From the NCBI GenBank assembly GCA_902559415.1, contig CACEHW010000003.1, positions 1 to 61,239 on the forward strand: a stretch of DNA of 61,239 nt, given 5' to 3'. The DNA comes from an uncultured Fidelibacterota bacterium (GTDB taxonomy: Bacteria; Fidelibacterota; Marinisomatia; Marinisomatales; UBA1611). Each line of letters starts with the position of its first letter. The stretch's first letter is position 1. The notes below the pieces were generated by a model that saw only the letters and a program-made list of their open reading frames with translations, searched no databases and had not been told where the DNA came from. Of the stretch, positions 28,993 to 34,031 are shown one piece after another. Position numbers and translations under genes: made by a program.

Positions 28993-29241
28993 TTATTTCT
29001 TGCTATATTTTTTCTGGAATTTTTCTATTCTTCCAGCAGTATCAACCAAGTTTTGTTGTCCAGTAAAGAATGGATGTGATTTATTAGATATCTCAATGCT
29101 GTACAATGGATACTCTTTCCCATCATCCCAAACTACAGTGTCTTTTGTTTCAACTGTAGACTTTGTTAAAAAAGAGTAGTCACAAGACAAATCTTTAAAA
29201 ACTACTAACCTATAATTTTCTGGATGAATATTTTTTTTCAT
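28993..29241 (-). CDS. rpmE2: 50S ribosomal protein L31, type B
   Basis: An 82-residue ribosomal protein of the large subunit. The sequence opens with KKNIHPENYRLVVFKDLS and contains EISNKSHPFFTGQQ. It lacks the CxxC zinc motif, as expected for the type B (zinc-independent) form. A strong GAGGAG lies six to seven bases before the ATG, unlike most neighbours. It is the last gene before the terminator and is three bases from the aminotransferase stop. Confidence 0.95.
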   Translation of the reverse strand: MKKNIHPENYRLVVFKDLSCDYSFLTKSTVETKDTVVWDDGKEYPLYSIEISNKSHPFFTGQQNLVDTAGRIEKFQKKYSKK

Positions 29242-29244
29242 TTT

Positions 29245-30444
29245 TTACTCCTCAATCATTTCAAGGGCTTTTTTTACTCTGTCCATACCCTTTTGAATTA
29301 TTTTTCTGTTTGTTGCATATGAAAATCTTATGTGTTCAGAAGAGCCAAATCCATCTCCTGGAACAGTTACAACCTGTACAGCGTCGAGAATATACTCTGA
29401 AATATCAAAAGTATCTTTCAATAATTTACCGTTCGCTTTTCGATTTAAATATGAACTAAAATCAGGAAAAACATAAAAAGCACCATTTGGTATAGCGCAC
29501 TTTACTCCAGGAAGGTTATTTAAAAGTCTCACAATTAAATCTCTTCTTTGTAAAAAAGACCTTTTCATATCCTCAACACAATTTTGATCTCCAAGTAATG
29601 CTTCAATACTTGCTTTTTGCCCAATAGAATTTGCGCATGAAGTAGCCTGCCCCTGAATCTTAGACATTGCTTTGATTATATTTTTGGGACCTGCAGCATA
29701 GCCTATTCTCCAACCTGTCATAGCATAGGTTTTTGATAAGCTCATACATGTTAAAACAGTGGCACCAATATTATGAACCTGATTTAATTTTTCTGCACTA
29801 GTAAAATCACCATCATAAACTAACCTCTCATAACACTCATCGGAAATAACAACCCATTGATTTTCTTTGGCTATTTTCAATAATCTTACAATAGCCTCAT
29901 TTCTCCACACACCTCCAGTAGGGTTTGATGGTGAATTAATTATAACACCCTTTATAGTAGAGTTGATTTTTGATTCTAAATCATCAAAATTTGGCTCAAA
30001 ATTACTTTCAGAAAGAGTATCTACTAGAACAGGATTAGCTTCTGCCATTTTCACAAACTCTGGGAAGGAGACCCAGTAAGGAGAGAAGACTACTACACTG
30101 TCGTCTGGATCAAATATAGCCTGACAAGCATTATATAAACTTTGTTTTTCTCCATTTGAAACAAGAATACTAGAAGGATCATAAGAAATCTTATTTTCCC
30201 TTTCTAATTTTTCACAAATTGCTTCCCTAAGCTCAATCATTCCTGGACCAGCAGTATATTTTGTATAACCTTGATCCAAAGCCTCTTTTGCTGCATCTCG
30301 AATATGTTTTGGAGTATTAAAATCAGGCTCGCCTACAGAAAAGTTTATAACATCAACCCCTCTTGACCTCATATCAGCTGCTTTTGTTGCCATCTGTAAA
30401 GTAAAAGATGGGTTGATGTTATTTACTCTTTGCGCTATACTCAA
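29245..30444 (-). CDS. Class I pyridoxal-phosphate aminotransferase (aspartate aminotransferase type)
   Basis: A 399-residue PLP enzyme of the bacterial class I aspartate aminotransferase type. It shows NSPSNPTGGV (about 170), the PLP-binding lysine in SLSKTYAMTGWRIGY (about 237-251) and the C-terminal Arg in RFSYA. Likely converts aspartate plus 2-oxoglutarate to oxaloacetate plus glutamate; prephenate is an alternative substrate in this subgroup. It starts at TTG, which overlaps the stop of the Cas6-like gene in a TTGA, and is followed directly by rpmE2. Confidence 0.92.
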   Translation of the reverse strand: MSIAQRVNNINPSFTLQMATKAADMRSRGVDVINFSVGEPDFNTPKHIRDAAKEALDQGYTKYTAGPGMIELREAICEKLERENKISYDPSSILVSNGEKQSLYNACQAIFDPDDSVVVFSPYWVSFPEFVKMAEANPVLVDTLSESNFEPNFDDLESKINSTIKGVIINSPSNPTGGVWRNEAIVRLLKIAKENQWVVISDECYERLVYDGDFTSAEKLNQVHNIGATVLTCMSLSKTYAMTGWRIGYAAGPKNIIKAMSKIQGQATSCANSIGQKASIEALLGDQNCVEDMKRSFLQRRDLIVRLLNNLPGVKCAIPNGAFYVFPDFSSYLNRKANGKLLKDTFDISEYILDAVQVVTVPGDGFGSSEHIRFSYATNRKIIQKGMDRVKKALEMIEE

Positions 30445-31400
30445 AACTTATGTTGCTTTTTATGATACTCTTCCGAGTTAAACCGAGAATCATCATCAAT
30501 ATCAGCTTCTTTTTTATTAAAATTATTACCTTTCCCCTTAGAAATTCCTCGTGGAGAAGGATTACCATTATTTGAGAATCTTTTTTTCTTGCCTTTATAT
30601 TTTTTTTTCTTCCTTCTTTTATTAATTACAGGAGAATCATTAATAGTGACAAATGAAAGGAATTTATCAGAAGTATTAATTTCTTCTTGGACATAATCTT
30701 CATCAGAATCCTGAAACTCTAAATTACTTATATGATTTAAACTAAAAATAGAGCCATATCCCCTTGTGATACCATTCCCAAACCCAATATAGCTGGGCAA
30801 CATAAAATTAGTTTTAAATTCAGCATTAAATGATCTCCATCCATTTTCATCATGTTTATTAGGCTTAATGTCCTGAACTTCAACTTTTGTATATATTTTA
30901 GAATCAATATTCAAACCCAACTCTTTCGACAAAAATAATAAGTTTTGGCCAAGTAGTTTGTTCAAAAATAAGATTTTCTCTTCATCTACTAGATTTTTGT
31001 ACTTCCTGTTGGTTCCAGCATTTAAAGCAACCCAAGGTGTTATGAATTTATATCTTAGCAGTTTATCAGCCATCATAACCGCATCATTGTTTTGCTCTGT
31101 TTCAACCTCTTCAATTTTTAAAGTAATATCACCAAAATTAAAAGAATCTAAATTTTTTATTAATGCTTGTACTGGCTCTACTCCCTCATTTATACCAACA
31201 ATATATATTTGTTCATTTAATATTTTAACCTGAACTCGAGGATAAAGATATTTACTTCTTAACCTGCCATCAAGAAAAGGGATTATTTTTTCATCAGGGA
31301 ACAGCTTCATAAAAACACCTTTCACTTGATAGGGGGTTTTTATTACAGGCTTGTCAGAAATCAAGCGAGCAGTGATAGACTCAGATATAATTGCTTCCAT
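30441..31400 (-). CDS. Orphan Cas6b-like RNA-binding protein with basic tail
   Basis: I read this as a Cas6 family fold outside any CRISPR locus. Residues 51-73 (YPRVQVK...IVGINEG) match the N-terminal Cas6b pattern, 116-128 (RYKFITPWVALNA) and 145-162 match its C-terminal domain, and residues 201-219 (LPSYIGFGNGITRGYGSI) give the glycine-rich loop that ends Cas6 enzymes. The usual N-terminal catalytic His is not visible: the first His is at 183. After about residue 260 comes a disordered, Lys/Arg/Gly-rich tail. An RNA-binding rather than cutting role seems likely, but this is inference. It lies 31 bases after rho and is coupled to the aminotransferase. Confidence 0.65.
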   Translation of the reverse strand: MEAIISESITARLISDKPVIKTPYQVKGVFMKLFPDEKIIPFLDGRLRSKYLYPRVQVKILNEQIYIVGINEGVEPVQALIKNLDSFNFGDITLKIEEVETEQNNDAVMMADKLLRYKFITPWVALNAGTNRKYKNLVDEEKILFLNKLLGQNLLFLSKELGLNIDSKIYTKVEVQDIKPNKHDENGWRSFNAEFKTNFMLPSYIGFGNGITRGYGSIFSLNHISNLEFQDSDEDYVQEEINTSDKFLSFVTINDSPVINKRRKKKKYKGKKKRFSNNGNPSPRGISKGKGNNFNKKEADIDDDSRFNSEEYHKKQHKF

Positions 31401-31431: not shown

Positions 31432-32682
31432 TTACTGACTCATAGTATCCAAAAATTCATTATTAGATTTAGTTCTCTTTATTCTATCAATTAAAAATTG
31501 AATAGCTTCATCAACTTTCATATCATTTACTAGTTTTCTGAGAATCCACATCCGGCCTAATTCTTTTCGACTAAGTAGTAATTCTTCTTTTCTAGTACCT
31601 GATTTTATAATGTCAAAAGCAGGATAAATCCTTCTGTCGCTTAAATGCCTATCCAAGGCAAGCTCCATATTTCCCGTACCTTTAAATTCTTCAAAAATAA
31701 CTTCGTCTGCTCTACTACCTGTATCCACTAATGCAGTTGCAATAATCGTTAAACTACCACCTTCTTCAGTATTTCTAGCAGCACCTAAAAATTGTTTTGG
31801 TTTTTTTAATGCATTAAAGTCGACTCCTCCAGACAAAATTTTACCGCTGTGTGGGATAACAGCATTATGTGCTCTCCCTAACCTAGTTATACTATCTAAA
31901 AGAATCACAACGTCATCACCAAATTCAACCATCCTCTTTGCTTTTTGAAGAACCATATCTGAAACAGATACATGTCTCTCTGGCGGCTCGTCAAATGTAG
32001 AACTTACAACCTCAGCATCAACATTTCGTTTCATGTCAGTGACTTCTTCAGGCCTTTCATCAATTAACAAAACTATTCTTTTTGTATCAGGATGATTTTT
32101 ACTTATCGCATTTGCAATTTTTTGCATTAAAACAGTCTTACCTGTTTTTGGCTGGGCAACAATAAGTGCTCTTTGACCCATACCTATTGGTGAGACTAAA
32201 TCCATAATTCTCATAGATATGTTTTTTTCATCTGTTTCTAAAACAAATCTTTTTTCAGGGTATAATGGAGTAAAATTTTCAAAAAGAATACAATCCTTTA
32301 ACTTTTCAACAGGCTGATCATTAACTAATTCGACTCTCAATAAAGCATAAAACCTCTCTTTTGCTTTAGGCGGCCTAATTTGTCCAGAAACCTTATGCCC
32401 GGTCTTCAACCTAAATCTTTTAATCTGAGAAGGACTAACATAAATATCATCTGGACCAGGCATGTAGTTAAAATCAGGTGACCTTAAAAAGCCATATCCA
32501 TCATGCATAACCTCTAAAATACCCTTTGCAAAAACTGATCCATCTTTTTCTGCCTGAGCTTCTAATATTTTTACTGTGAGCTCTTGCTTATTTAAACCAG
32601 AAATATCATCTGATATTTTTAGTGATTTTGCTAACTCTGCCAGCTCCTGAATACGTAAAGCCTGTAACTCGCTTAAATCCAT
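31432..32682 (-). CDS. rho: Transcription termination factor Rho
   Basis: Hexameric RNA helicase that terminates transcription. A Rho_N helical domain (1-47) is followed by a cold-shock-like RNA-binding domain with GYGFLRS near residue 70. The ATPase core has Walker [12 protein letters not shown] and Walker [15 protein letters not shown], then the Q/R loops. Length 416 is normal, with no insertion. A 77-base gap before the gene contains only a weak stem (CTACC/GGTAG) that might matter for autoregulation. Confidence 0.97.
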
Positions 32683-32759
32683 AAATAATTCCCTAATAAT
32701 TCATTAAAATTAGTATGTTAAAACTCTACCGGGGATTGTGGTAGATAATATAAATTACA

Positions 32760-34031
32760 TTAATTGTTTGTTGTGTCAAAGTATTTTCCAACCGAAGAAT
32801 AAACTTCCTCTGCTATGTAATGACTACCAAAAATAATTGTTATATAATTATTATCATAATTTTTTAACAATTCTACACCACTATTGACTGAAGAAACAGA
32901 TATAGCTTTACTATTATTTTTATTAAAAACTTTATGTAAATCTGAACTGCTCATTAAATAACCATTTTTATCACTACAAATAATAATTTTTTCAAAATTT
33001 TCTTTTATTAACTTGCAAATTTCATCAATATTTTTATCACTTTTTATTGAAAACAAACCAATAAGTTTTTTATCAGGGTGCAAAGCTGATATAGTTTCTA
33101 TCATTGAGGCAATCCCTTCATAATTATGCCCCACATCATAAAACAAATTTTTAGATTTATTAAGATTTTCTAAACGCCCTTTCCATTCAGTTTTAAAGAC
33201 AGCACTATTTATTTTTGAAATATCTAAGGATTCTCCGAGTACAGTTTGTGATAGTGCTATTGCCAAACTACAGTTTTTCACTTGATGCCTTCCAATTAGA
33301 GGTAAATTAATTTTAAAATTTAAATATGAAAAAAGAGTCCCATGTTTATCTGATCTAATAATATTGATATCTTCATCTCTAACAATATTAAGAGGGCTCT
33401 TTTTTTCTTTAGATACCTGACTTAAAATTCTCAAGACTTTATCTTGTTGCTCAAAAGTTAAAATAGGAATATTATTTTTAATAATTCCAGCCTTTTCCAT
33501 GGCTATTTTTTCAATTGTATCTCCTAGAATATCTGTATGATCCATAGAAATAGACGAAATACCACAGACTATTGGAGTAATAACATTTGTAGAATCAAGC
33601 CTACCACCTAGCCCTGTTTCAATTATAGCATAATCAACAGATTCTTTGTGGAAATAATCAAACGCCATAGCCGTAGTTGTCTCAAAAAAAGTTGATTCAA
33701 TAGATTTTATAAGTTTCCTATTATCTTTAAAAAAACTAGCTATACGATCATCTGAAATTTGATGCCCATTTATTTGAATTCTTTCATTGAATTTCTTTAA
33801 ATGAGGAGAGGTATATAAACCCACCTTAAAACCATGTTCAATTAAAATACTACTTAATATTGAACAAGTACTCCCTTTCCCATTCGTGCCTGCTATATGA
33901 ATTAATTTTAAATTTTCATGAGGATTCCCAATTGCTTTAAGTAATTCAATTGTATGATCTAAGCCAACTTTTATACCGAGTCGTTGTAAGTTATATAATT
34001 CTTCTAAAATTGAATCAATATTAAAAATCAT
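32760..34031 (-). CDS. folC: Folylpolyglutamate synthase / dihydrofolate synthase
   Basis: Adds glutamate to dihydropteroate or folates, retaining them in the cell. The Mur-ligase ATP loop is GTNGKGST (about residue 48) and the SMDHTDILG and EKAGIIK motifs of FolC follow. I take the ATG at 34031; a TTG precedes it at 34034. It overlaps the end of murI by 11 bases. Confidence 0.94.
   Translation of the reverse strand: MIFNIDSILEELYNLQRLGIKVGLDHTIELLKAIGNPHENLKLIHIAGTNGKGSTCSILSSILIEHGFKVGLYTSPHLKKFNERIQINGHQISDDRIASFFKDNRKLIKSIESTFFETTTAMAFDYFHKESVDYAIIETGLGGRLDSTNVITPIVCGISSISMDHTDILGDTIEKIAMEKAGIIKNNIPILTFEQQDKVLRILSQVSKEKKSPLNIVRDEDINIIRSDKHGTLFSYLNFKINLPLIGRHQVKNCSLAIALSQTVLGESLDISKINSAVFKTEWKGRLENLNKSKNLFYDVGHNYEGIASMIETISALHPDKKLIGLFSIKSDKNIDEICKLIKENFEKIIICSDKNGYLMSSSDLHKVFNKNNSKAISVSSVNSGVELLKNYDNNYITIIFGSHYIAEEVYSSVGKYFDTTNN

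Follow-up and report, generated by a model that had tools for sequence, protein, structure and literature searches.

A Cas6b homologue without the catalytic histidines linked to rho in Marinimicrobia

Gene order at the rho locus

The window, by which we mean the whole stretch of DNA analysed (61,239 nucleotides), contains a gene for a Cas6-like protein between rho and an aminotransferase gene. The features of this locus, with positions counted along the window, are the following:

28993..29241, minus strand: ribosomal protein L31 (rpmE), after the aminotransferase
29245..30444, minus strand: class I/II aminotransferase; its start overlaps the cas6b stop by 4 nt (TTGA)
30441..31400, minus strand: rho-linked Cas6b homologue, catalytically degenerate, 319 aa; Pfam, PADLOC, PDB and Foldseek matches and conservation
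31092..31352, minus strand: Cas6b_N domain, residues 17-103; Pfam PF17955, 43.4 bits
30747..31070, minus strand: Cas6b_C domain, residues 111-218; Pfam PF17262, 93.9 bits
31266..31286, minus strand: degenerate active site, residues 39-45, IIPFLDG; alignment to 4z7k, 71 rho-linked and 8 CRISPR-linked Cas6b
30747..30791, minus strand: glycine-rich loop YIGFGNGITRGYGSI, residues 204-218; Asn209 where CRISPR-linked Cas6b has Lys
30636..30680, minus strand: short segment of the C-terminal extension, residues 241-255; high-confidence AlphaFold2 prediction, V-P motif conserved in tails
30510..30620, minus strand: Lys/Arg-rich disordered linker, residues 261-297; low pLDDT, fast-evolving
30444..30482, minus strand: C-terminal motif FNSEEYHKKQHKF, residues 307-319; N308, H313 and H317 invariant, ending exactly at the C-terminus
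31432..32682, minus strand: rho, immediately upstream with a 31-nt gap; Pfam Rho domains, adjacency in 71/71 fetched loci
32752..32780, minus strand: promoter-like element TTTGACA-N-TAATTT before rho, at the folC/rho boundary; found in 30/40 home-order loci

The open reading frames of the window and their Pfam matches agree with the order given in the original prediction, which placed the gene between rho, 31 nt away, and a translationally coupled aminotransferase, followed by L31. Throughout, copies of the gene are labelled rho-linked or CRISPR-type by their neighbourhood, i.e., by whether or not rho lies beside the gene. In all 71 fetched loci of the rho-linked type, rho is directly upstream on the same strand, at a distance of 0-182 nt (median, 33). 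The aminotransferase gene comes next in 57 of these loci, overlapping or abutting in 26, and genes further downstream often encode L31, DUF1385, prfA and prmC. The rho-cas6b pair is kept where it is followed by a convergent PEPCK gene (L028), by UbiA and dnaE (L069) or by a response regulator and tgt (L075), and in several lineages the translation genes have gone from the neighbourhood while rho stays. In relatives that lack the gene, the aminotransferase gene directly follows rho (L094-L099, L106-L108); thus, cas6b was inserted or lost as a discrete unit at a single site. The same loci illustrate that gene adjacency can persist without contact, as rho and the aminotransferase gene adjoin there too.

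The promoter-like element (TTTGACA-N-TAnnTT, about 100 nt before rho) was detected in 30 of 40 loci of the home order, i.e., the order of the window's own genome, versus 2.5% of shuffles; it was absent from the 170 nt before cas6b (0/43) and before the aminotransferase gene (0/37). Because the element lies before rho and none was found before the other two genes, cas6b is likely, judging from the sequence, to be expressed from the rho promoter, although this has not been shown. The element occurs also in some genomes without the Cas6b gene, and coding constraint on folC, the end of which it partly overlaps, contributes to its conservation.

The rho leader also contains a hairpin, TCTACC-ACAATCCCC-GGTAGA (window about 32728-32748, minus strand), which is present in the genus. 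Related hairpins with C-rich loops occur in part of the family, but conservation does not extend to the order as a whole, and a single consensus fold gave nothing. We therefore make no claim that the hairpin is a binding site for the Cas6b homologue; it is possibly a C-rich site of Rho loading or autoregulation.

Identification as a Cas6b homologue

Both domains of the window protein are above the curated Pfam cut-offs (39.4 bits for Cas6b_C and 25 bits for Cas6b_N), with E-values of 9e-27 and 4e-11, respectively, and the protein thus qualifies as Cas6b by its domains. PADLOC called it Cas6/Cas6b at 1e-43 and 5e-41, and its sole sequence match in the PDB, found with phmmer over residues 25-219, is Cas6b (4z7k, 2e-26). 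No family was assigned in a search of NCBIfam. The AlphaFold2 model, built on an alignment of 50 homologues, has a mean pLDDT of 84 and a pTM of 0.77; the top five Foldseek matches to it are Cas6b chains (4z7k/4z7l; best E-value 4e-16, target-normalised TM 0.80), followed by other Cas6 families. The protein therefore has the Cas6b fold, in a predicted rather than a solved structure. The Cas6b-like fold proposed originally is correct, because the Pfam, PADLOC, PDB and AlphaFold2/Foldseek matches are all Cas6b. On the evidence of these matches and of the model, the gene product is a genuine Cas6b homologue, with a similarity far above chance.

Active site and core residues

The catalytic histidines of Methanococcus maripaludis Cas6b (MmCas6b), which we take to be H38 and H40, a numbering that rests also on alignment, are both missing from the window protein: Pro41 stands at the His38 position, and the His40 position is deleted. 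The same is true of the rho-linked rows of the alignment, where position 38 is never His and position 40 is deleted (71/71), while CRISPR-type rows from the same phylum retain H38 in 7/8 and H40 in 8/8. Judged by its catalytic histidines, then, neither the window protein nor any of the 71 rho-linked rows passes as Cas6b, and the absence of the catalytic His from the window protein, already remarked in the original prediction, holds against both 4z7k and these 71 rows. In M. maripaludis Cas6b, two histidines have been implicated in catalysis (PMC3652601). On the other hand, Sulfolobus solfataricus Cas6 cuts without the canonical His (PMC3652601), so the loss of His is no proof of inactivity.

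Changes extend beyond the histidines. The Lys of the glycine-rich loop in CRISPR-type copies is replaced by Asn in 65/71 rho-linked proteins, and position 184, Lys in CRISPR-type copies, is mostly acidic. Altogether, basic residues fixed in CRISPR-type copies are lost from the rho-linked core at positions 25, 99, 184 and 209, others are conserved there (K/R27 in 71/71, R48 in 66/71, K59 in 65/71 and R/K213 in 70/71), and three, R12, R55 and K172, are gained. The mean net charge of the core is about +3 in rho-linked proteins versus about +11 in CRISPR-type Cas6b. With the lower charge and the lost basic residues, RNA binding by the rho-linked protein cannot be assumed; its RNA-contacting Cas6 surface has probably been rebuilt, a suggestion made from residue patterns in the absence of RNA-binding data.

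The Cas6 fold and the glycine-rich loop are nevertheless kept and the catalytic histidines lost, so the protein most likely binds rather than cuts, RNA binding itself being inferred. It is unlikely, but far from absurd, that the protein remains an endoribonuclease that relies on other residues (e.g., K27, R48, K59 and R213) and processes cellular RNA, perhaps the rho operon transcript. These residues are strongly conserved in rho-linked proteins, and the activity of S. solfataricus Cas6, which does without the catalytic His (PMC3652601), means that the possibility cannot be dismissed; it is weakened by the uniform loss of both histidine positions, by the substitutions in the loop and at position 184, and by the fact that no repeated substrate was seen in the window.

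C-terminal extension and selection

The window protein continues for about 100 residues beyond the Cas6b core. The Lys/Arg-rich tail of about 55 residues in the original prediction must be corrected accordingly: the disordered Lys/Arg-rich stretch is only the part at about residues 261-297. In the AlphaFold2 model, pLDDT is about 96 in block 241-250 and below 50 across residues 277-310. Extensions of about 100-140 residues are found in most proteins of the home order, and four proteins from two other families (L080-L083) have a tail of about 70 residues that ends in a shortened version of the C-terminal motif; outside the home order, there is little or no C-terminal extension.

The end of the tail follows the pattern [FY]N-x-x-x-[YHF]-H-[KQR]-x-[QR]-H-x-x-COOH, with the N and two H invariant in 40/40 long-tailed homologues. 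The overlap with the aminotransferase start could be suspected as the cause of this conservation. We rejected this explanation because the motif is equally kept where the aminotransferase gene is 11-13 nt away and because synonymous codons vary within it. The core has dN/dS of about 0.01-0.17 between close pairs, and the gene is therefore maintained by purifying selection. In the tail dN/dS is mostly 0.14-0.35, and the tail apart from the motif evolves several times faster than the core. As a sequence pattern, an invariant terminal motif on a fast-evolving linker is the signature of a docking peptide, whose partner is not identified. When the same genomes were searched for the motif in other proteins, with a degenerate DNA pattern, the cas6b copies were recovered along with scattered further matches, which were judged unrelated by eye, without a reading-frame check.

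The basic tail also bears on whether the protein is a ribosome- or translation-linked RNA-binding protein, or a general RNA chaperone, in an operon with L31, prfA and prmC. It resembles ribosome-binding tails, with a long basic linker in most proteins of the home order, and L31, DUF1385, prfA and prmC genes are often downstream. Furthermore, a search of 151 Marinimicrobia genomes, every one of them except that of the window chosen for a completeness of 85% or more, found no Hfq above the curated Pfam cut-off, so that there would be a place for a different RNA chaperone. However, the tail is missing outside the home order, several lineages have lost the nearby translation genes while rho stays, and Hfq is missing also from genomes without the gene. 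Since Hfq is absent across the phylum, non-carriers included, no correlation could be used, and the idea that the protein replaces Hfq was dropped. Overall, we regard a role in translation or as a general chaperone as quite improbable.

We are more sceptical still of the idea that the Cas6 fold is now purely a protein-interaction subunit, e.g., one that binds Rho or RNA polymerase, with no RNA binding at all. The lower core charge, the loss of basic residues specific to CRISPR-type copies and the invariant, docking-like C-terminal motif would suit such a subunit, but the glycine-rich loop, R/K213, K27, R48 and K59 are retained, which speaks against it.

Distribution

The gene is present in 56 of the 61 nearest genomes, those of its order, where it is thus almost universal, nearly always as a single copy. 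In an even sample of the phylum, 102 of 199 genomes match PF17262; removal of four genomes with only a CRISPR-type copy leaves 98 that carry the rho-linked type. Systematic absences are those in the 0.7-1.0 Mb genomes of family f15/g25 and in f16/g37 genomes. The gene is dispensable: f15 and f16/g37 genomes keep rho without it. 

Two further observations concern individual genomes. In f15/g25 genomes (e.g., G046, G056 and G149), rho reading frames are 428-452 aa long versus about 415 aa, which may be an artefact because the start codon was chosen mechanically. Genome G025 has two rho-type Cas6b matches (G025:C13 and G025:C5), 60% and 47% identical to the window protein, which are either a paralogue or MAG contamination (5%).

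Matches were also obtained in 11 genomes of other phyla, from a sample of a few hundred genomes at most. Their scores reach 174 bits, versus at least 235 bits for rho-linked copies. In none of ten fetched loci is rho beside the gene; most of these loci have a type I-B gene layout, and the neighbour in L086 is Cas8b. On these grounds, we rejected the occurrence of the rho-linked type in the other phyla sampled.

Separation from CRISPR

The original prediction saw no repeat array in the window, and none was found: the window has only three two-copy repeat families, none of them array-like. It has no match in Rfam, and cas1 was not found in the window's own genome, which is 65% complete. Taking linkage to cas genes or an array, or residence in a CRISPR-bearing genome, as the mark of a CRISPR component, the window protein does not bear it. 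In the phylum sample, cas1 was present in 12 of the 98 carriers (5/72 in the home order) and was not found in the remaining 86. Several cas1-bearing carriers hold a second, His-intact Cas6b, and three genomes (G065, G070 and G190) have a rho-linked copy and a separate CRISPR-type copy. Among CRISPR-type copies, L054 and L065 are type I-B loci by their Cas8b/Cas7/Cas3 or Cas8b/Cas1 neighbours, and Cas8b is among the neighbours in L062, whose genome has a CRISPR-type copy but no rho-linked one. The neighbours tested in L073, also CRISPR-type, gave no cas match, so not every CRISPR-type copy has been placed in a CRISPR locus.

In a maximum-likelihood tree, 67 rho-linked rows versus 18 CRISPR-type rows are split by one branch (98/95; 99% of bootstrap trees); some CRISPR-type rows are long-branched, and their own order is unsure. 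Active site, profile score and tree all agree with the labels set by neighbourhood. The alternative that the protein works as a CRISPR Cas6b for arrays at other sites in the genome and lies beside rho by chance could draw on its recognition by Cas6 profiles and on the 12 carriers with cas1, but it is already contradicted, and retains next to no credibility, given the 86 carriers without detected cas1, the active site lost in all, the separate His-intact Cas6b in several CRISPR-bearing genomes, the rho linkage in 71/71 and the separate clade.

One CRISPR-type region is unusual in its own right. At L078:7680-13154 (G170:C18), a His-intact Cas6b is accompanied by an ORF6N-domain protein (PADLOC PDC-S05), two unknown proteins and Cas12a (1406 bits), which makes the region type V-A. 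Cas12a processes its own crRNA, and a Cas6b beside it was unexpected. Cas6b also adjoins PDC-S05 in L077 (G047:C148).

Exaptation of Cas6b away from immunity, which the original prediction had inferred, is well supported by the loss of His, the scarcity of cas1, the separate clade and the rho linkage. The check suggested there, a Cas6 match together with conserved rho-Cas6 order in CRISPR-less genomes, was passed. Neither outcome that would have refuted it occurred: profiles did find Cas6 similarity (Cas6b_C, 93.9 bits), and the relatives are not consistently His-intact proteins in CRISPR loci (71/71 lie beside rho with His lost). The observation is confirmed as real and is stronger than was first claimed.

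A possible role with Rho

We have shown here that the protein descends from Cas6b, has lost the catalytic residues and stands apart from CRISPR, that its gene is strictly linked to rho and under purifying selection, and that the C-terminal motif exists. To explain these findings, we propose, at roughly even odds, that a non-catalytic Cas6b was exapted as a Rho-linked RNA-binding cofactor; its RNA binding, its contact with Rho and any effect on termination are inferred. Cas6b would have left CRISPR before the carrier families diverged and acquired a fixed place in the rho transcription unit, as a housekeeping gene, keeping the double ferredoxin/RRM-like Cas6 fold and the glycine-rich loop while losing the catalytic histidines. 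Made with Rho from one mRNA, the homologue might hold RNA and/or Rho through its core and tune the loading of Rho or termination, with a function similar to that of Rof or Psu. The basic linker and the C-terminal docking motif present in most of the home order may tether the protein to a constant partner (Rho, RNA polymerase or the ribosome). Action on Rho is inferred from linkage, without data on Rho contact or termination, and RNA binding, although favoured by the operon linkage, likewise has no direct evidence.

Rof and Psu are proteins that bind and inhibit Rho, Rof (Sm-like) being a homologue of the RNA chaperone Hfq (PMC11018626, PMC11718236). These small Rho-binding regulators offer a working analogy only: their folds are unrelated to that of the window protein, and Rho contact has been shown for them and not for it. 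The stable genetic linkage to rho (71/71) is merely supporting in this respect, as it is no defining feature of Rof or Psu.

The closest relative of known function is M. maripaludis Cas6b (4z7k, 4z7l), the type I-B crRNA-processing endoribonuclease, which has in common with the window protein the two-domain fold, the glycine-rich loop and core aromatic/Asn residues. The window protein differs from it in lacking both catalytic histidines, in having Asn in place of the loop Arg/Lys, in its added C-terminal extension and in lying beside rho, not cas genes. CRISPR-linked Cas6b of the same phylum (e.g., L054 and L065) has a homologous core and coexists with the rho-linked copy in some genomes; unlike rho-linked copies, it is His-intact and more positive, has I-B neighbours and falls in a separate clade. 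S. solfataricus Cas6 (Sso1437) likewise lacks the canonical active-site His (PMC3652601), but this enzyme, from an archaeon that has CRISPR, remains active as a crRNA endonuclease.

Neither the fold nor the concept of derived Cas proteins is new in itself. Solo Cas4 and the derived CRISPR variants borne on transposons and plasmids are also Cas components without adaptive immunity (PMC5704561, PMC6452270). In the portions of these sources that we consulted, no such component is presented as a gene that is inherited vertically and fixed in a rho operon, and the derived variants ride mobile elements, unlike rho-linked Cas6b. Derived CRISPR components without a role in immunity are mostly found on mobile elements; their non-defence functions, according to a review, were experimentally unexplored as of 2019 (PMC6452270). 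In the open-access literature, we found no paper that links Cas6 to rho or describes a solo Cas6 in Marinimicrobia. Taken as a whole, the reading of a CRISPR RNA-processing enzyme domesticated in Marinimicrobia, i.e., a vertically inherited, non-catalytic Rho partner, the first Cas6 in core termination, with a lineage-specific docking motif, is a tentative one, to which we give somewhat less than an even chance.

One practical consequence is that a Cas6 profile match alone should not be taken as CRISPR in these genomes. More broadly, a Cas protein is now a core gene of a widespread ocean lineage and has a fixed genomic partner, which offers an immediately testable hypothesis. Should the protein act on Rho, it would represent a novel class of termination factor; should it bind a particular RNA, it would reveal the function of a Cas6 scaffold released from repeat cutting. 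Our results suggest that a component of bacterial immunity has been converted to a housekeeping role, as an RNA factor or a termination factor.
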